Shown piece by piece: positions 283 to 17,197 of a stretch of 27,196 bases of DNA (position 1 is its first letter; every line of letters starts with the position of its first letter). The DNA comes from a virus. A program made the translations under genes and the position numbers. Under the pieces are notes generated by a model, which saw only the letters and a program-made list of their open reading frames with translations, ran no database searches and was not told the origin of the DNA. The DNA is taken from IMG/VR virus record IMGVR_UViG_3300023176_005074, positions 1 through 27,196 of that record. One strand, 5' to 3'.

Positions 283-620
283 AAGCCGGTAAAGTATGGG
301 GAATGACAGAACAATTAGAAATGAATGGTGTTTTGGAATTTCATAGAATTGAAATGAATAAAGGCGGTGTTTGTTCTAAGCATTGTCATGAATTTAAATG
401 GAATGGATTTTATGTTGAAGAAGGACGTATGCTTATTCGTGTATGGCAAAACGATTACGATCTAGTTGATGAAACTATTCTAGAACCAGGACAATATACA
501 AAGGTCAAACCGGGTGTTTATCATCAGTTTGAATGTCTAGAAGATGGTGTTGCCTTTGAATTGTATTGGGCTGAATTTAATCATAATGATATTAAAAGAG
601 AAACAGTAGGTCACGCATGA
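279..620 (+). CDS. Small single-domain cupin protein
   Basis: The 113 residues fit a single cupin beta-barrel. Motif 1 is visible as GGVCSKHCHEFKWNGFYVEE with metal-ligand candidates His35, His37 and a Glu near 47. Motif 2 is KPGVYHQFE with Pro78-Gly79 and His82. Single-domain cupins include sugar-phosphate isomerases, epimerases and dioxygenases, so the reaction cannot be fixed from sequence. The preceding stop overlaps its ATG, SD GGAAAA lies just upstream, and its own stop overlaps the next gene, a nucleotidyltransferase. That pairing suggests work on a small sugar- or polyol-phosphate that is then activated with a nucleotide; this is inference from context. Confidence 0.8.
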   Translation: MKAGKVWGMTEQLEMNGVLEFHRIEMNKGGVCSKHCHEFKWNGFYVEEGRMLIRVWQNDYDLVDETILEPGQYTKVKPGVYHQFECLEDGVAFELYWAEFNHNDIKRETVGHA

Positions 621-1048
621 AAGTTGGACTAACCGCATCAACATTTGATCTCTTACATGCAGGTCATATCGCAATGTTAAGAGAAGCGAAAGAAAATTGT
701 GATTATCTTATCTGCGCTTTGCAAGTAGATCCGTCAGTTGATCGACCAGATAAAAACCAACCTATTCAAACTATTGTTGAAAGATATACGCAACTTGCAG
801 CAGTAAAATATGTTGATGAGATCATTGTTTATTGTACAGAACCTGATTTACTTGATATAATAAACATGTATCCTATTGATGTACGTATCCTAGGGGATGA
901 ATATAAAGATAAAGATTTCACTGGTAAAGACGAATGTCGCCGAAGAAATATTCAACTTTACTTCAACAAGAGAGATCATAGATTTTCTTCTTCTGGTTTA
1001 CGTGAAAGAGTATTTGAAAGAGAGTTACAAAAACATGATTCAACATAG
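617..1048 (+). CDS. HxGH cytidylyltransferase-like protein (TagD/RfaE type)
   Basis: A compact 143-residue nucleotidylyltransferase. The signature HAGH is at residues 14-17 after the first beta-strand (KVGLTASTFDLLHAGH). An RYTQLAAVKYVDEI segment around 56-69 matches the region in glycerol-3-phosphate cytidylyltransferases, and SSSGLRER at 124-131 occupies the place of the C-terminal nucleotide-binding ISTS/STSGLR motif. Length is typical of TagD-like enzymes (about 130-150). It would transfer a nucleotide, probably CMP, onto a phosphorylated polyol or sugar. ATGA overlap with the cupin gene, and a 14-nt overlap with the dCMP hydroxymethylase gene, place it in the DNA-modification operon. The substrate is unknown; a NAD- or pantetheine-pathway enzyme is a less likely alternative. 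Confidence 0.85.
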   Translation: MKVGLTASTFDLLHAGHIAMLREAKENCDYLICALQVDPSVDRPDKNQPIQTIVERYTQLAAVKYVDEIIVYCTEPDLLDIINMYPIDVRILGDEYKDKDFTGKDECRRRNIQLYFNKRDHRFSSSGLRERVFERELQKHDST

Positions 1049-1727
1049 CGTAAAAGATATTCGTGAATATTTTAAAAGCGAATTAGCTGATGAAGCGTTT
1101 ACTATTGATAAAACTGGTCAAAAAACAATTGAATTAATTGGTGCAAGTTTTCTTGCTGATGAGGAAGCGATCTTTGGTATACCAAACACTGATTATATTA
1201 CTCAAGAAATCTTGTGGTATGAAAGCGAATCAACAAATATTCAAGATATTTACGGTGAACTAAGACCTCCTCCCGCAGCATGGTTATACTCAGCAAATTC
1301 TCATGGTGAAATTAATTCAAATTATGGCCACTTAATTTTTTCTGATAAGTACTTTAATCAATACGGCATGGTTCTTGATGAACTGTTAGCAAACCCTGAC
1401 GGTCGCCGCGCATCAATGATTTATCAAAGACCTTCAATTTGGATGGAATTTAGCGAACATGGAAAATCAGATTTTATTTGTACTAACGCTGTCACTTACT
1501 ACATTCGTGATGGTTTACTTCATTGTGTAGTTCAAATGAGATCGAACGATGTTGTGTTTGGTTATAAAAATGATTATGCATGGCAATTACATGTTATGAA
1601 AAAGTTATGTTGGGATTTTAATAATCTTGATAGATATGATAATGGTAGAGTAATTGATCCTGGCATGATGATTTGGCAGGTACAAAATCTTCACGTTTAT
1701 GAAAGACACTTTAATTTGGTGAAATAA
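1035..1727 (+). CDS. 42: Deoxycytidylate 5-hydroxymethylase (T4 gp42-like, thymidylate synthase fold)
   Basis: Predicted to convert dCMP to 5-hydroxymethyl-dCMP with methylene-tetrahydrofolate, so that hmC enters the phage DNA. The 230 residues (T4 gp42: 246) show thymidylate-synthase landmarks: phosphate-binding Arg124-Arg125 (DGRRASMIYQR), catalytic Cys149, the RS-N-D-x4-G segment at 169-176, and His220-x-Tyr222. Where thymidylate synthases have an Asn that reads uracil, this protein has Asp180 (FGYKNDYAW). An Asp here is the known switch to cytosine in T4 gp42, whose key residues are Cys148 and Asp179. The frame is open upstream to 897, but that would overlap the previous gene by 150 nt; Met at 1035 gives a 14-nt overlap and a normal length. 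A separate ThyX is present at 9553, so this gene is not needed for dTMP. Confidence 0.9.
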   Translation: MIQHSVKDIREYFKSELADEAFTIDKTGQKTIELIGASFLADEEAIFGIPNTDYITQEILWYESESTNIQDIYGELRPPPAAWLYSANSHGEINSNYGHLIFSDKYFNQYGMVLDELLANPDGRRASMIYQRPSIWMEFSEHGKSDFICTNAVTYYIRDGLLHCVVQMRSNDVVFGYKNDYAWQLHVMKKLCWDFNNLDRYDNGRVIDPGMMIWQVQNLHVYERHFNLVK

Positions 1728-1939
1728 TGAGTAATCTTATACTTATCACAGATATTCTAGAAACAAAACTTCGTAAAGAAAAAGAATTAGAATATTATCA
1801 AGCTGAATTAGAAAAGCTACAACAAAAAATGTTTTTTATAAAAAAAGATATCGACATCACTAATCTAATTATAGACATGATAGAAAAAGAAAAAGTTTAT
1901 GATATTCAACAAAACATGATTGGAAAAGATAGTGAGTAA
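1727..1939 (+). CDS. Small coiled-coil protein, unknown function
   Basis: 70 residues, mostly Lys/Glu/Leu with heptad-like spacing (LRKEKELEYYQAELEKLQQK), so a short helical hairpin or coiled coil. The ATG shares one base with the preceding TAA, and the 3' end overlaps the dCMP deaminase start. It could be an oligomerisation or adaptor subunit of the nucleotide-metabolism enzymes around it, but no family is recognised. Confidence 0.7.
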   Translation: MSNLILITDILETKLRKEKELEYYQAELEKLQQKMFFIKKDIDITNLIIDMIEKEKVYDIQQNMIGKDSE

Positions 1940-2381
1940 ATGGGATGTTCGTTACTTAAATCTTGCTAAGGAAGTAAGCACTTGGTCTAAAGACCCATCA
2001 TCTAAAATAGGCGCTGTTGCTGTTGGATCAAAAGGTCAAGTATTATCACAAGGCTATAACGGATTTCCTAGAGGCATTTTTGATGGAGGTGCTAGACTAA
2101 ATGATAGAGAAATTAAGTACAAATATATTGTACACGCTGAACAAAACTTAATTTATAACGCTACATATAATGGTGTTTCTCTTGATGGCGCAACACTATA
2201 TGTAACTGGTTTACCAGTATGTTCTGAATGTGCTAAAGGTGTAATACAGGTTGGAATTAAACGAGTAGTTATGCCGGAACAAGAAATTAAAGAACATTGG
2301 AAAGAATCTTGGAACTATTCAAAAGTATTTTTTCATGAAGCTGGAGTAAAATATGATTTTGTTAACATCAATCTTAAATAA
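1932..2381 (+). CDS. cd: dCMP deaminase
   Basis: Deaminates dCMP to dUMP, feeding dTMP synthesis (ThyX at 9553). The zinc site is complete: HAE at residues 68-70 (His ligand and catalytic Glu) and PVCSEC at 96-100 with Cys97 and Cys100. The N-terminal DPSSKIGAVAV and SQGYNGFPRG blocks are typical of the dCMP deaminase family. I chose the GTG at 1932 because GGAAAAG at 1922-1928 stands just upstream as a ribosome binding site; an in-frame TTG at 1920 would add four residues and has no such site. It overlaps the coiled-coil gene by 8 nt. Together with the dCMP hydroxymethylase it divides the dCMP pool between hmdCMP and dUMP. Confidence 0.93.
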   Translation: MSKWDVRYLNLAKEVSTWSKDPSSKIGAVAVGSKGQVLSQGYNGFPRGIFDGGARLNDREIKYKYIVHAEQNLIYNATYNGVSLDGATLYVTGLPVCSECAKGVIQVGIKRVVMPEQEIKEHWKESWNYSKVFFHEAGVKYDFVNINLK

Positions 2382-2392
2382 CAAAGTGTTAT
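2378..2392 (+). terminator. Weak hairpin after the dCMP deaminase gene
   Basis: ATAACA, loop AAG, TGTTAT forms a 6-bp AT-only stem beginning at the stop codon, followed by AGAATTTT. The T-run is short, so at best it is a weak terminator separating the 1-2381 operon from the promoter at 2412. Confidence 0.3.
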
Positions 2393-2411
2393 AGAATTTT
2401 GGAAAAAATAG

Positions 2412-2440
2412 TTTACAAAGCTATTATTTTATGATAGAAT
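2412..2440 (+). promoter_or_regulatory. Sigma70-like phage promoter P1
   Basis: TTTACA at 2412-2417, 17-nt spacer, TAGAAT at 2435-2440. Predicted transcription start is near 2447, about 40 nt ahead of the glycosyltransferase ATG. This copy has TGA rather than TGG before the -10 box. It matches six other sites in the window with the same spacer length. Confidence 0.8.
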
Positions 2441-2453
2441 ATAGTTATAAAAT

Positions 2454-2461
2454 CATAAATA
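2454..2461 (+). promoter_or_regulatory. Late-promoter-like box CATAAATA
   Basis: CATAAATA fits the NATAAATA late motif of T4-like phages and lies 25 nt before the ATG at 2487, downstream of P1. If both sites work, the glycosyltransferase operon would be made both early/middle and late. An 8-base AT-rich match alone is weak evidence. Confidence 0.4.
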
Positions 2462-2486
2462 CATATGCGTAATTAAGGATAATTAT

Positions 2487-3734
2487 ATGACTAGAATTGC
2501 AATCGTCCTCGGTCGTGGAACTGAAGGATGTGGAGTAACTCAGTGCGCTATTCAAATGCAAAAGGTTACAGATGCAGATATTTTTTCTGCTTATGATAAA
2601 AAGTGGGGTCGTGCTAAAGGATTAGAGATCCAAGAAAAACAATTTATGATGGGCACTGAATGGGAGATTACTGCAGATGTTATTAATAATAACTATGATT
2701 TAGTAGTTATTTATTCTGTTCCATCTAAAGGACATCCTCAAGATTGCCAAGATAATTTTATCCCGTTCCTTCAACGTCTAAAAATTCGTAAAGCATTTAT
2801 TAATGTTGACCATAAAGCAGCATCCATTGCACGTAATGCTAATCTAAAAGAAGTGTGTGAAAATGTTGATGTGATTATGACGCATAGCATGGAAAATGAT
2901 TTCTGTAAATTCATGCGTAAAAATAAAATTCAAACCCCGCTTACAAAGATGGGTTTAGGATTTGATTATGACGGTCATCGTCAAAAGTACTGGCGTCCTA
3001 TTGAAGAACAACAAGATAATGTGGTACGTTGGATTGGCCGCACAGCAATGTGGAAAGGTCCAAGTCTTATGATTGATTTCCACCAAGACGCTTTGATGGA
3101 GAATGGATTCATCACAGTACTAGAAGGATTAGAAGCTTCAATTCAATATCCTCTTGTTTTGTATCGTGATAATAAAGCTGAAAAGCCTATAGATCGTCGT
3201 ATTGTAGAAAATTATTTCCGACCAGAAAAACAATTTAATGAAGTCAAGTTTACACCTGACTTATATGGTAAAGAAGAAGTAAACAAAGGTGCTTATCTTT
3301 ATCCACAATATATTAATGATGAAGCAATGATGCGTATGGCTCGTTCAGCCTTTGGCTCAGATCTTTATCATTTAAAAGCAGAAACATATGGAAATAATAT
3401 TGAGAACTGCCATGCTGAGTGTATCGCATCAGGTACAGTTCCATTGTTCCATAAACATTTCTGTGATAACGTAATTCACCCAGTACAGGGTGATCCTATT
3501 AGTCAATGCAAAAACTCTGGCACTATTGGTGTTGACTATACTAACTTTGAAGAGTGCCAACAACTTATGATTAAACTTAAAAATGATCCTGCGATGAGAG
3601 ATGATTGGAGAGAGATGGCATTTGAATTTTGGAAGCAACACTCAGACGGTGAGACAGTTGTGAACGAAATTGTTGATCTCGCTTTGAACACTACTAGCAA
3701 CCAACCACAAGGACTCGAGGAATTTTTCGGATGA
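2487..3734 (+). CDS. agt: DNA alpha-glycosyltransferase, T4 AGT-like
   Basis: 415 residues against 400 for T4 alpha-glucosyltransferase, which moves glucose from UDP-glucose onto hydroxymethylcytosine in DNA. From memory the match to T4 AGT is clear across the protein: N-terminal RGTEGCGVT (T4 RGLEGCGVT), RWIGRTAMWKG at 181-191 (T4 RWIGRTTTWKG), then DFH and VLEGLE at 211-216 (T4 VMEGLE), and a C-terminal FEFWKQHSD segment (T4 YEFLYQHQD). It is a GT-B fold enzyme acting on phage DNA in the cytoplasm. It leads an operon with a UDP-uronate epimerase and a UDP-glucose dehydrogenase, each overlapping the last, so the donor may be a UDP-uronic acid rather than UDP-glucose (inference). A dCMP hydroxymethylase 0.8 kb upstream supplies the acceptor base. 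Confidence 0.9.
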   Translation: MTRIAIVLGRGTEGCGVTQCAIQMQKVTDADIFSAYDKKWGRAKGLEIQEKQFMMGTEWEITADVINNNYDLVVIYSVPSKGHPQDCQDNFIPFLQRLKIRKAFINVDHKAASIARNANLKEVCENVDVIMTHSMENDFCKFMRKNKIQTPLTKMGLGFDYDGHRQKYWRPIEEQQDNVVRWIGRTAMWKGPSLMIDFHQDALMENGFITVLEGLEASIQYPLVLYRDNKAEKPIDRRIVENYFRPEKQFNEVKFTPDLYGKEEVNKGAYLYPQYINDEAMMRMARSAFGSDLYHLKAETYGNNIENCHAECIASGTVPLFHKHFCDNVIHPVQGDPISQCKNSGTIGVDYTNFEECQQLMIKLKNDPAMRDDWREMAFEFWKQHSDGETVVNEIVDLALNTTSNQPQGLEEFFG

Positions 3735-4681
3735 AAATTTTAATTACTGGCCAAGCCGGCATGATAGGCTTCCACTCTGCTAAACACTTTGCTTCAAAAG
3801 GGCATACTGTTGTCGGAGTAGATAACTTTAACGATTATTACGATGTTAGTTTAAAAAATGAACGAGCTCGTATTCTACAAGATGATTATGGCGTAGAAAC
3901 TATTTACTGTGATATTCAAGATAATAAAATTAAAGAACATAAAATGTTACAAGATGTAGATGTTATGCTTCATCTTGCGGCATATGCTAATCCAAGACAT
4001 GCTCTTGAAGAACCACAACCATATATTGATACTAACATTACTGGTACTCAAAGATTGATTGAAGCAGCTGAGGAATATGATGTTCCAGTTGTATACGCTT
4101 CAAGTTCATGTGTTATGCATGGTCAGCCATTGCCTTGGAATGAGCATGATAGACCAGATATGCAAAACAACCCATATGGTTGGTCTAAACGAGCAAATGA
4201 GTGTCAGTTTGGACACTCACGATTAAGCCGATCAGCCGGCCTGCGTTTCTTTACTGTGTATGGACCGTATGGTCGTCCAGACATGGCTTTATTTAAATTC
4301 ACTGATGGTATCGTAAATAATGAGCCAATCACACTTTATAATTTTGGTGATATGAAACGTGATTTTACCTATGTACAAGACATTGTAAATGGTATAGAAT
4401 TAGTAGTAGATAAAGCAGTGAACGACAATGATTCTTGGCATGAGATTTACAATATTGGATATGGCCAACAAGTAGATTTGCTCGAGTTTGTAAATGAAAT
4501 TGAAGCAAATCTTGATCGTAAAGCAGAACGTATTTTGGCTCCTAAACACCCTGCAGATGTCCCTGAGACGTGGTCTGACACTACTAAATTACAAGCGTTA
4601 GGTTACAAACCTACAACTTCTGTAAAAGAAGGAGTACGTGAATTTGTGACTTGGTACAAAGGTTATTATGGAGTTAACTAA
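3731..4681 (+). CDS. NAD-dependent epimerase, UDP-glucuronate 4-epimerase-like
   Basis: An extended short-chain dehydrogenase/reductase of 316 residues. The NAD-binding glycine motif is GQAGMIG at 7-13. The catalytic set is Ser125/Ser126 (YASSSCV) and Tyr149-x3-Lys153 (YGWSK). The DNFNDYYDVSLK block at 31-42 is characteristic of UDP-glucuronate 4-epimerases, which make UDP-galacturonate; UDP-xylose synthases and UDP-glucose 4-epimerases differ here. It overlaps the glycosyltransferase gene by ATGA and the UDP-glucose dehydrogenase by one base. Together they read as UDP-glucose to UDP-glucuronate to UDP-galacturonate, then transfer. Activity on another nucleotide sugar cannot be excluded. Confidence 0.85.
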   Translation: MKILITGQAGMIGFHSAKHFASKGHTVVGVDNFNDYYDVSLKNERARILQDDYGVETIYCDIQDNKIKEHKMLQDVDVMLHLAAYANPRHALEEPQPYIDTNITGTQRLIEAAEEYDVPVVYASSSCVMHGQPLPWNEHDRPDMQNNPYGWSKRANECQFGHSRLSRSAGLRFFTVYGPYGRPDMALFKFTDGIVNNEPITLYNFGDMKRDFTYVQDIVNGIELVVDKAVNDNDSWHEIYNIGYGQQVDLLEFVNEIEANLDRKAERILAPKHPADVPETWSDTTKLQALGYKPTTSVKEGVREFVTWYKGYYGVN

Positions 4682-5493
4682 TGAAGATGACAATTGTTGG
4701 CCACGGATTTGTTGGCAAAGCTGTGGATTATGGATTCAGCAGTGCAGTAAAACAAATCGTGGATCCGATCTATGGTGTTTCACTATCAGATATTAAATTA
4801 AATGAAGACGTTACATTTGTATGTGTACCAACGCCTATGGGTGAAAACGGTGAGATTGATTGTTCAATTGTGGTTGACACTGTTAATGAGCTATCACAAA
4901 GACAATCAGGTATTATTGTTATTAAGTCAACAGTAACACCTGATGTTATTGATACTCTAACAAGTGGAAGCTGTCGTAATCGTATCGTCTATAATCCTGA
5001 GTTCCTTACAGAAAAGAATGCATGTGAAGATTTTGTAAACCCAAAAATGCATATTTTTGGTGGATACAAAGAAGCAACTGAAAGGTTAGAAGAGATATAT
5101 AATCAATATAGCTTATGCAAACCTTGTCCAGTTCATCATATGTCAGCTACAGATGCTAGCTTTGTTAAGTATGGAATCAACTGTTTCTTAGCAACAAAGG
5201 TTTTGTGGTTCAATCAATTCTACGATGTAGTAGATAATTTTGGAGGCAACTTTGGACATATTATTAATGCAATCAGCGGTGATCCTCGTATTGGTGGGAG
5301 CCATACTCGTGTACCTGGCTTTGACGGTAAGCGGGGTTACGGAGGCGCCTGTTTTCCAAAAGACACTTCAGCGTTTGCGAACTTTGCTGAAACGTTTTCA
5401 GTTTTGGAAAAAGTAATCGATGTCAATAATGAATATCGTAAAGAATATGATAAAGACGAACGTGAACTAGCTCAGAACGTGAAATATGGTTAA
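4681..5493 (+). CDS. UDP-glucose 6-dehydrogenase, short form
   Basis: Expected to oxidise UDP-glucose to UDP-glucuronate with two NAD. The Rossmann start IVGHGFVGKAV is at 5-15, VCVPTPMGENGEID at 47-60, IKSTVTP at 81-87, YNPEFL at 104-109, the central helix around Lys163-Asn167, and the catalytic cysteine motif GYGGACFPKD with Cys224. At 270 residues it ends soon after the catalytic Cys. Canonical enzymes run to about 390-450 residues with a C-terminal UDP-binding domain, which is missing here. I see no frameshift: the stop overlaps the following methyltransferase start, so the short form looks natural. A missing C-terminal domain leaves open whether it is active alone or pairs with another subunit. 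Confidence 0.87.
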   Translation: MKMTIVGHGFVGKAVDYGFSSAVKQIVDPIYGVSLSDIKLNEDVTFVCVPTPMGENGEIDCSIVVDTVNELSQRQSGIIVIKSTVTPDVIDTLTSGSCRNRIVYNPEFLTEKNACEDFVNPKMHIFGGYKEATERLEEIYNQYSLCKPCPVHHMSATDASFVKYGINCFLATKVLWFNQFYDVVDNFGGNFGHIINAISGDPRIGGSHTRVPGFDGKRGYGGACFPKDTSAFANFAETFSVLEKVIDVNNEYRKEYDKDERELAQNVKYG

Positions 5494-6676
5494 TTACGCA
5501 AGCATAGTTCCACTTATTGGTGGGGAAACAATAGCAATGAACAATGTATTCGGGAAACGTCCCGAGTACATCTTATCTTACACGGACTTTGAAGCGAATG
5601 ATAGGCAACTTCTTAATTACTATGATAATAGCGTTCCTTATCTTAAACTTGATATGGGGCATGTTGCACCTCATAGTGTGGATGTTGTCAACACTGTTTG
5701 CCCTTGTGCTGGTTTGTCTTCCCTTTCTCCTAGCAGCAGCTCTGATAGCAGCACTAATGACTGGATGGTTAAATCCGCACACTATGTCATTGAACAAGTT
5801 AGGCCAACAGTATTCTGGGGAGAGAATGCACCAAGATTAGCAAGTAAAATGGGAGAAAAGGTTGTAGCTCAATTAAGAGATCTTGCTCGTAATAATGGAT
5901 ACACTTTTAGCATTTATAAAACTAAGTCTATTCTTCATGGTTTAAGTCAAGTTAGAGATCGTACTTTTTATTTCTTTTGGAAAGGTAACCATGTTCCAGT
6001 ATTTGAATATTATAATAGACCTCATGAAAAAATTGAGGACACTATTCGTAATGCTGCTACTAATGAACTTGACGAAATGTTTGAACTTCGTGCTAATGAA
6101 AAGATTCCGTCTAAAGAACCTTTTTATGAATATGTTTTAGAAGAAATACATGGAGGAATATCTCATATGGATTTCTTTAATATGATTGAGAAGACTACTA
6201 ATCCTTTGCACTATATTGAAGACAAAGGAATCAATTATCACGATGTTGCAAAGTGGATGGATTCAAAAGGATACGAAAATCATGCACGTAAGTGTCGTAG
6301 AATGGGAGATAAATTAAAAGCAGGTGGAAACATCATGCGGAAGACTACAGAAATTGGTAAGAATTTTATTGGCGCGTTTGTTGGCCACTTTCCAATTGAA
6401 CTTACACACCCAGATCAAGATCGTTACATTAATGTACGTGAAGCATTATCAATTATGAAAATGCCAAAAGATTTCCAGCTTATTGGTGGAAAGAAAAATG
6501 TTAATATGATTTGTCAAAATGTTCCTGTTACTACAGCAATGGACATGGCAGAAAACGTAAAAGACTTTTTAAGTGGAGATTGTAAAACTATTGAATCTCA
6601 ATTTGCTATACAAGATAATAAAACAAAAAAATTCTGGTCAGAACCAGCACCATCAACACTTGAAGCGTTTTTTTAG
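5486..6676 (+). CDS. DNA (cytosine-5) methyltransferase
   Basis: 396 residues with the C5-MTase motifs in order: motif I-like ASIVPLIGGETIAM at the N-terminus, the catalytic Pro73-Cys74 (VCPCAGLS, motif IV), ENAP at 113-116 (motif VI, normally ENV), QVRDR at 155-159 (motif VIII), and C-terminal IMKMPKDF plus CQNVPV (motifs IX-X). The target-recognition region would be about 170-300. Its start overlaps the UDP-glucose dehydrogenase by 8 nt, so it is the last gene of the P1 operon. In a phage that builds hmC into its DNA, C5 would already be blocked. It may therefore methylate the remaining cytosines, act on host DNA, or have been recruited to another modification. Confidence 0.87.
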   Translation: MVNYASIVPLIGGETIAMNNVFGKRPEYILSYTDFEANDRQLLNYYDNSVPYLKLDMGHVAPHSVDVVNTVCPCAGLSSLSPSSSSDSSTNDWMVKSAHYVIEQVRPTVFWGENAPRLASKMGEKVVAQLRDLARNNGYTFSIYKTKSILHGLSQVRDRTFYFFWKGNHVPVFEYYNRPHEKIEDTIRNAATNELDEMFELRANEKIPSKEPFYEYVLEEIHGGISHMDFFNMIEKTTNPLHYIEDKGINYHDVAKWMDSKGYENHARKCRRMGDKLKAGGNIMRKTTEIGKNFIGAFVGHFPIELTHPDQDRYINVREALSIMKMPKDFQLIGGKKNVNMICQNVPVTTAMDMAENVKDFLSGDCKTIESQFAIQDNKTKKFWSEPAPSTLEAFF

Positions 6677-6705
6677 TTTACAATCAATATATTATATGGT
6701 AGAAT
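6677..6705 (+). promoter_or_regulatory. Sigma70-like phage promoter P2 (uvsX)
   Basis: TTTACA at 6677-6682, 17-nt spacer ending in TGG, TAGAAT at 6700-6705. It begins at the base after the methyltransferase stop. Predicted start near 6712, giving an 18-nt leader that carries AAGGAG at 6718-6723, well placed for the ATG at 6730. Confidence 0.85.
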
Positions 6706-10460: not shown

Positions 10461-10489
10461 TTTACAATTGAAAAGAAATGTGGTAGTAT
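10461..10489 (+). promoter_or_regulatory. Sigma70-like phage promoter P3 (sleB)
   Basis: TTTACA at 10461-10466, 17-nt spacer ending TGTGG, TAGTAT at 10484-10489. Predicted start near 10496, followed by AAAGGG and the ATG at 10519. Almost identical to P6 at 22333 over the whole element. Confidence 0.85.
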
Positions 10490-16471: not shown

Positions 16472-17197
16472 ATGATAGAAAATTGTCATAAAATGGCACT
16501 TATGGCACATATCGCTTATGAAGATGGAAAAGAAGCTAAGCCTAAATATAAAGAATTAGGATATAGCTATCATAAATTTATTGAAAATGATGGTGCACAG
16601 TGTCATGTAGTTTGGAATAAAGAAGAATTGACAATATGTTTTAGAGGTACTGAACCTTCAGAATTTTCTGACATAAAGGCAGATTTAAATGCTCTTCCAG
16701 ATAGAGCACAAAATGGTTCTGGTTTTGTTCATAATGGATTTCAAGAAGAAGTAAATAAAATTTGGGATGAGATAGTAAAACTTCTTGATCAACATAAAAA
16801 AGAAAGAAAAGTATTCATCACAGGACATTCACTTGGCGGTGCTATGGCAACAATAGCTGCAAGTAGAATTTTACCTGATGCATTCTATACCTATGGATCA
16901 CCAAGAGCAGGGACTAGAAAATTTGTTAAAAGTTTTTCTCATATTCCTCATTATCGTCACGTTAATAATAACGATATTGTACCAAAAGTTCCTTTTGCCA
17001 TCCTTGGATACAAACATCATTCTCCCTCCCGTTATATCAATTACTACGGAAATATTAGATCCCTTACCTACTGGCAAAGATTAAAAGATCAGTGGAGAGG
17101 TAGAGTGACTGCTTGGAAAAAAGGCACACCTTTTGATGGTGCATATGATCATGGAATGGATCACTACTGTAAATACACGGAGAAAAACAATGGCTGA
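16472..17197 (+). CDS. Class 3 lipase / phospholipase
   Basis: 241 residues of alpha/beta-hydrolase Lipase_3 type. The strand LTICFRGT at 53-60 carries the oxyanion region. The nucleophile elbow is TGHSLGGAMA with Ser120, the acid is in NNNDIVPKVP (Asp168), and candidate His residues are at 182-183 or 227/231 (YDHGMDHY). No signal peptide is visible, so it would act from the cytoplasm or after membrane permeabilisation, or be carried in the virion. AGGGGAAAG gives a strong ribosome site. It lies among spanin- and holin-like genes, so attack on host phospholipids at lysis is the most natural reading. Confidence 0.9.
   Translation: MIENCHKMALMAHIAYEDGKEAKPKYKELGYSYHKFIENDGAQCHVVWNKEELTICFRGTEPSEFSDIKADLNALPDRAQNGSGFVHNGFQEEVNKIWDEIVKLLDQHKKERKVFITGHSLGGAMATIAASRILPDAFYTYGSPRAGTRKFVKSFSHIPHYRHVNNNDIVPKVPFAILGYKHHSPSRYINYYGNIRSLTYWQRLKDQWRGRVTAWKKGTPFDGAYDHGMDHYCKYTEKNNG

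Follow-up and report, generated by a model that had tools for sequence, protein, structure and literature searches.

The locus described here raises the question of why a T4-like phage should couple a DNA glycosyltransferase to two enzymes of uronic acid metabolism. It lies in IMG/VR record IMGVR_UViG_3300023176_005074 from an uncultured phage, the whole 27-kb stretch of which (27,196 nucleotides) is referred to as the window; uvsX, a DnaB-type helicase and thyX mark the phage as T4-like. An initial annotation had proposed that four enzymes encoded at 1035–5493 decorate 5-hydroxymethylcytosine (hmC) with an acidic sugar, and family, structure and residue evidence places all four there, on the plus strand: a deoxycytidine monophosphate (dCMP) 5-hydroxymethylase, an AGT-type DNA glycosyltransferase (AGT), a uridine diphosphate (UDP)-glucuronate 4-epimerase-type enzyme (EPI) and a short UDP-glucose 6-dehydrogenase-like enzyme (UGD). 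The operon extends further than was annotated, with a fifth gene for a C5-cytosine-methyltransferase-like protein (MTase) that had been missed. We estimate a probability of roughly 0.6 that an unchanged hexuronic acid is transferred to hmC by a replication-coupled AGT. The EPI–UGD product probably serves as a donor for DNA, and the sugar, if it is a uronic acid, is likely to be galacturonic rather than glucuronic acid. A uronic acid donor for the DNA glycosyltransferase is the best-supported reading on the strength of the gene neighborhoods, the exclusive partner glycosyltransferases, the clamp-like C-terminal tails and the EPI residues, while the chemistry itself we infer from these.

Enzymes encoded by the operon

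The best solved relative of the hydroxymethylase (1035–1727) is the T4 dCMP hydroxymethylase (PDB entry 1b49; E 2.6e-67), with thymidylate synthases at 3e-5 or worse. Its sequence is 51% identical to T4 gp42 versus 23% to the RB69-type 5-hydroxy-dCMP synthase, which rules out assignment to the latter type. The catalytic Cys149 and the dCMP-specifying Asp180, which replaces the Asn of thymidylate synthases, are exactly as first annotated and are those of a gp42-type enzyme.

AGT (2487–3734) has the GT-B fold and matches the Pfam AGT family (PF11440; E 3.6e-31) and T4 AGT itself (E 2e-40). The nine best structure matches of its predicted model (mean pLDDT of 80) are all T4 AGT, with a TM score of ~0.8 (0.81), and the best non-AGT solved structure among the matches listed reaches at most 0.57. 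The phosphate and ribose contacts of T4 AGT (Gly15, Arg204, Lys209 and Glu311) are conserved. The three histidines that contact glucose in T4 AGT (114, 116 and 140) are not all present: His116 and His140 are kept, and the position of His114, a named glucose contact (PMC6024577), is occupied by Val in 61/61 AGTs of the clade (Val107 in the window). The protein is thus a member of the AGT family whose donor cannot be taken for granted. T4-type, S-TIM and phage G AGTs retain His at this position. The change from His114 to Val would fit a donor altered at C6, although it is suggestive only.

EPI (3731–4681) is a short-chain dehydrogenase/reductase whose nearest solved structures are 5u4q and the UDP-glucuronate 4-epimerases 6zl6 and MoeE5, with UDP-xylose synthases ranking far lower. 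Tyr149, Lys153, Thr178 and Arg185 of the Bacillus cereus epimerase BcUGAepi are kept in 55/55 EPI relatives (Tyr149, Lys153, Thr175 and Arg182 in the window, with Ser125, Ser126 and Cys127). At the position of BcUGAepi Ser128 these relatives have Cys and never Glu; this position was read by hand, the automatic alignment being off by one column there. Arg185 of BcUGAepi grips the carboxylate of the product and, with a Thr/Ser pocket, blocks decarboxylation (PMC12338863), and decarboxylases carry Glu at position 128 (PMC7984243). The Tyr/Lys pair, Thr178, Arg185 and the lack of Glu at 128 are together those of a UDP-glucuronate 4-epimerase, and EPI is predicted to interconvert UDP-glucuronate and UDP-galacturonate. 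Active-site residues and PDB ranking rule out a UDP-glucuronate decarboxylase of the UDP-xylose synthase or ArnA type. The initial annotation had seen no decarboxylase in the window, and no UDP-glucuronate decarboxylase or UDP-xylose synthase was found in 14 related AGT-type records either, among them records as long as 146 and 121 kb. Members of the short-chain dehydrogenase/reductase family beyond EPI are absent from 12 of the 14; the other records encode UDP-sulfoquinovose-synthase-like and dTDP-glucose-dehydratase-like proteins. A UDP-sulfoquinovose-synthase-like gene in the 146-kb record (G008; L176 142–1284) matches NF041015 with E 1e-106, under the family cut-off.

UGD (4681–5493) consists of the Rossmann and central domains with the catalytic Cys224. 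The catalytic motifs NPEFLxE, KYxxN and GGxCxPKD occur in 48/48, 47/48 and 48/48 relatives, respectively, so that the annotation as a UDP-glucose dehydrogenase holds for the catalytic residues. It does not hold for the defining C-terminal UDP-binding domain, which is missing in all 48 (only 42–69 residues lie beyond the CFPKD motif), and the enzyme is therefore named a UGD-like short form. One relative (record G010; L178 664–1782) encodes a second nucleotide-sugar dehydrogenase of 372 residues alongside the short UGD, and its flanking genes may form a separate sugar cluster.

The coupling of AGT, EPI and UGD by overlapping codons is as annotated: AGT and EPI overlap by four bases (ATGA) and EPI and UGD by one, and UGD and MTase (5486–6676) overlap by eight. 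A promoter-like site, TTTACA-N14-TGATAGAAT, lies upstream of AGT (2412–2440, plus strand) and another upstream of uvsX (6677–6705, plus strand). With up to three mismatches allowed, the motif TTTACA-N14-TGnTAgaAT occurs ten times in the window versus three expected, always on the plus strand. Among relatives it is found upstream of AGT in 19/52 and of uvsX in 27/36; within 130 bases before the gene, it was found for none of 57 EPI, 49 UGD and 53 MTase genes. AGT, EPI, UGD and MTase thus appear, on sequence evidence only, to form one transcription unit bracketed by promoter-like sites. Since the gene order is shared by about 80 related contigs and the hydroxymethylase, AGT, EPI, UGD and MTase genes are under purifying selection (dN/dS 0.07–0.20, with dS near saturation), the arrangement is more than chance. 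Further copies of the motif, in the form TTTACA-N14-TGGTAgtAT, lie at 10461, 18929, 20003 and 22333, all on the plus strand, and the motif is likely to represent a promoter class of this phage.

Gene neighborhoods and C-terminal tails

A first set of 80 contigs was retrieved with AGT as the query and its counts are biased towards AGT loci. Within it EPI follows AGT wherever the contig extends that far, usually with UGD, MTase and uvsX after it, and the join between AGT and EPI is a four-base overlap in 46/69 relatives. A second set, which avoids this bias, was retrieved with EPI as the query and comprises 64 distinct loci, each with 1.2 kb or more of sequence upstream. A candidate DNA glycosyltransferase is present in 61 of these and absent from three; the partners are AGT in 44, TAGT in 14 (three of which also have a 393-residue GT4-like protein), a 415-residue glycosyltransferase in two and the GT4-like protein alone in one. 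TAGT (Pfam PF20691) belongs to a GT-A family unrelated to the GT-B AGT (PMC13216743). AGT and TAGT never occur together among the loci compared, and TAGT is absent from 14/14 AGT-type records, which eliminates it as the true user of the donor there; these records also lack TET oxygenases. As the transferase is exchanged while EPI and UGD stay, the most economical reading is that different DNA glycosyltransferases draw their donor from EPI and UGD. UGD is kept in all ten of the searched records of at least 33 kb, including two in which it lies apart from EPI, and in L037 and L110 it is found directly upstream of the hydroxymethylase. In the complete phage C48C1, EPI and UGD occupy the same site by uvsX with a TET oxygenase in place of the hydroxymethylase, which is an independent co-occurrence with hmC chemistry. 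This oxygenase, of the TET/JBP type and with a clamp-like tail, stands in a row with an unassigned protein and a UDP-galactopyranose-mutase-like protein (record OQ984149.1 49583–53030; L082 27584–31031), possibly as another sugar-on-DNA system.

The C-termini of AGT (GLEEFFG) and MTase (STLEAFF) in the window share a pattern, L[DE]xF[FLMY], that is present in 69/74 AGTs, 4/6 proteins of a second AGT type (see below) and 48/60 MTases. It is found in 0/379 of the EPI, UGD, hydroxymethylase, deaminase, uvsX and DnaB proteins of the relatives (UGD alone, 0/78); the enrichment (Fisher p ~1e-98) is indicative only, the sequences being related. The pattern is otherwise found mostly in family-B DNA polymerases with TLEDFF-type ends, the rest of its carriers being two further glycosyltransferase types near EPI and one unassigned open reading frame (ORF). 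Among the 176 ORFs of C48C1, a slightly looser pattern selects four: besides the polymerase these are a Dam-type methyltransferase, a TET oxygenase and a baseplate protein. The T4 α-glucosyltransferase binds the sliding clamp gp45 (PMC13216743). From the likeness of the AGT and MTase tails to that of the polymerase, both proteins are predicted to dock on the sliding clamp and to act on newly made DNA.

MTase has the C5-methyltransferase fold with the catalytic Cys74, the ENV-type Glu113 and the RxR motif intact. Its S-adenosylmethionine (SAM)-binding motif I reads PLIGG and not FxGxG. Relatives occur in only 8/50,697 phage records, namely those of S-TIM cyanophages, phage G and XG4. Like the window clade, S-TIM and phage G have AGT homologues and dCMP-type (Asp) enzymes of the thymidylate synthase family, and XG4 has a gp42-like enzyme next to an RB69-like sugar cluster. 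Within the EPI-query set, MTase accompanies 40/46 loci with AGT or the 415-residue glycosyltransferase versus 0/14 with TAGT. A tentative and rather unlikely proposal is that MTase is not a plain methyltransferase and that, in DNA bearing galacturonic acid on hmC and with both AGT and MTase docked on the clamp, its Cys edits or further modifies hmC, for example by excising the hydroxymethyl group, or putting another group in its place, at selected sites.

Proposed pathway and alternatives

In the proposed pathway, the hydroxymethylase would generate 5-hydroxymethyl-dCMP, which the phage polymerase would build into DNA. UGD would oxidize host UDP-glucose at C6 to UDP-glucuronate and EPI would convert this to UDP-galacturonate, presumably with sufficient flux through both. 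AGT, docked on the clamp by its LEEFF tail, would then move the hexuronic acid, most likely α-galacturonic acid, onto the hydroxymethyl group during DNA synthesis, and MTase, with the same kind of tail, would act on the same DNA. The modified base would be negatively charged, to whatever extent cytosine is substituted.

Several observations weigh against this pathway. The lack of the UDP-binding domain means that oxidation of UDP-glucose by UGD is not assured. A second AGT type, present in five loci and 33–36% identical to the window AGT, keeps His114 within an operon that is otherwise unchanged where covered; the substitution of His114 by Val is therefore no proof of a donor switch, and its use as such is weakened. 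Records of 77–177 kb that contain EPI, UGD and TAGT have no recognized hydroxymethylase or TET, which leaves room for a role away from DNA, and L008 and L021 have a gene for 3-deoxy-D-manno-octulosonate (KDO)-8-phosphate synthase upstream of the operon, which would fit a role in lipopolysaccharide.

The last two observations are what would be expected if EPI and UGD made UDP-galacturonate for a surface or capsular polysaccharide or lipopolysaccharide, of which it is a common precursor, while AGT glucosylated hmC as in T4. We consider this improbable. T4-type glucosylation requires neither enzyme, EPI is translationally coupled to AGT, and the pair is strictly associated with DNA-type glycosyltransferases whose two folds are unrelated; moreover, a displaced UGD still lies inside the hydroxymethylase–AGT block, the operon contains no membrane glycosyltransferase and it sits in the modification island between pol43 and uvsX, as in T4 and RB69. 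The truncation of UGD has another possible explanation, namely that AGT adds glucose or galactose and UGD then oxidizes C6 of the sugar on the DNA; that every relative has lost the UDP-binding domain yet kept the catalytic residues would suit such an enzyme. This order of events is very unlikely, as UGD has no clamp-like tail although the DNA-acting enzymes have one, UGD and EPI travel together and an epimerase of this type requires a UDP-uronate (PMC12338863).

It is also conceivable, although again unlikely, that the pathway leads to DNA as proposed and that the final sugar is not a free uronic acid because a host enzyme or an unlinked phage enzyme alters it, either ahead of transfer or afterwards, for instance by decarboxylation to a pentose or by amidation. 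T4-like phages with a pentose on their DNA have been described (PMC6024577; PMC13390438), Val in place of His114 would suit any donor without a 6-hydroxyl group, and some relatives have radical SAM and small methyltransferase-like genes within the operon. Set against this are the lack of a UDP-glucuronate decarboxylase in the 14 records, the absence of any extra sugar enzyme that is constant in the operon and the presence of a dedicated C4 epimerase, whose grip on the carboxylate would be pointless if that group were lost first. Transfer of the intact hexuronic acid to hmC is therefore preferred.

Relation to known systems and neighboring genes

The system resembles T4 in its gp42-type hydroxymethylase, the AGT fold and probable docking of AGT on the clamp, and differs in having its own EPI and UGD, Val at the position of His114, the C5-methyltransferase-like protein and no β-glucosyltransferase; T4 uses host UDP-glucose and needs neither EPI nor UGD. 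T4 gp42 and the β-glucosyltransferase are encoded between DNA polymerase and uvsX, the RB69 arabinose cluster is located there too (PMC13390438) and the window operon is in the same island. Like RB69 and other Mosigvirus members, the window phage thus carries its own sugar-donor genes in this island. The initial annotation had drawn a comparison with arabinosyl-hmC in RB69, which is outdated: in RB69-type phages arabinose is attached to 5-hydroxydeoxycytidine and not to hmC, and the sugar cluster consists of isomerase, kinase and nucleoside triphosphate (NTP)-transferase genes (PMC13390438; PMC6024577), so that the known RB69 route does not involve a decarboxylase either. RB69 itself has a 5-hydroxy-dCMP synthase, an arabinose-5-phosphate isomerase and an NTP-transferase, with no UGD, EPI or AGT reported. 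Neither the isomerase nor the NTP-transferase is among the annotated genes of the window, which does not have the makings of RB69-type arabinosylation.

An acidic sugar on DNA had been described as unusual in the annotation. A partial precedent is Bacillus phage SP-15, which has a UDP-glucose dehydrogenase, as in the window, and carries phosphoglucuronate and glucose on a hypermodified uracil (PMC5977210). SP-15 itself differs in the uracil base, the long side chain and the phosphodiester linkage of the glucuronolactone, with no AGT or hmC reported. The MT/TET-dependent TAGT clusters of phage metaviromes likewise involve phage DNA glycosyltransferases that act on hmC, and relatives of the window pair TAGT with the same EPI and UGD; the window clade differs from them in making hmC at the nucleotide level and in using AGT. 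No uronic acid glycosidically linked to hmC, nor any acidic sugar on cytosine, was found in the literature searched, which excluded Pyle et al. 2024 (Cell Reports), reportedly a metavirome survey of such MT/TET-dependent glycosyltransferase clusters.

If the proposal is correct, modified cytosines would bear an additional negative charge in a T4-like phage group that is widespread and known from metagenomes. The charge would alter how restriction enzymes (type IV and others), CRISPR and DNA glycosylases recognize the DNA, and packaging would have to cope with it. The carboxylate would offer a handle for enzymatic DNA chemistry (coupling, enrichment or sequencing), and EPI–UGD beside a DNA glycosyltransferase would be a gene signature for finding such phages. 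It would also raise a concrete question about the MTase-like family in phages with homologues of dCMP-type hydroxymethylases.

Upstream of the operon, a HIGH-type, cytidylyltransferase-like nucleotidyltransferase (617–1048, plus strand) overlaps the hydroxymethylase by 14 bases; its membership is uncertain. The gene adjoins EPI or UGD in some relatives, and a pathway-specific role is unsupported, since it occurs without EPI or UGD nearby in Vibrio and Caulobacter phages. A eukaryotic-type phosphomannomutase (PF03332) is encoded near it in L138 (1342–2052), with a similar ORF in L179 (765–2447; record G005); in record G005 the phosphomannomutase-like ORF, the nucleotidyltransferase and a displaced UGD are adjacent, which hints at a longer sugar-nucleotide route. 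The KDO-8-phosphate synthase of L008 (5127–5933) passes NCBIfam cut-offs and that of L021 (3023–3586) was recognized by eye, both upstream of cupin and nucleotidyltransferase genes.

Between the hydroxymethylase and AGT lies a dCMP deaminase, a nucleotide-pool enzyme (1932–2381, plus strand), which starts at GTG 1932 or TTG 1920. L009 (6869–7905), L021 (5415–7601) and L030 (6311–7286) encode radical SAM proteins, each seemingly spread across two ORFs, between the deaminase and AGT, and small methyltransferase-like genes are also found inside the operon of some relatives. Directly before AGT in L021 (7637–8008), L030, L037, L057, L061 and L069 is a small protein with GxNPS and HPSGLN-like motifs, which has no Pfam match; by eye it resembles uracil-DNA glycosylases and could remove the 5-hydroxymethyluracil that arises from hmC deamination.

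A scan of bacterial genomes for a host returned no relative, and psbA is absent from 20 records, which neither supports nor rules out a cyanobacterial host. The window also encodes a class 3 lipase (PF01764) at 16472–17197.

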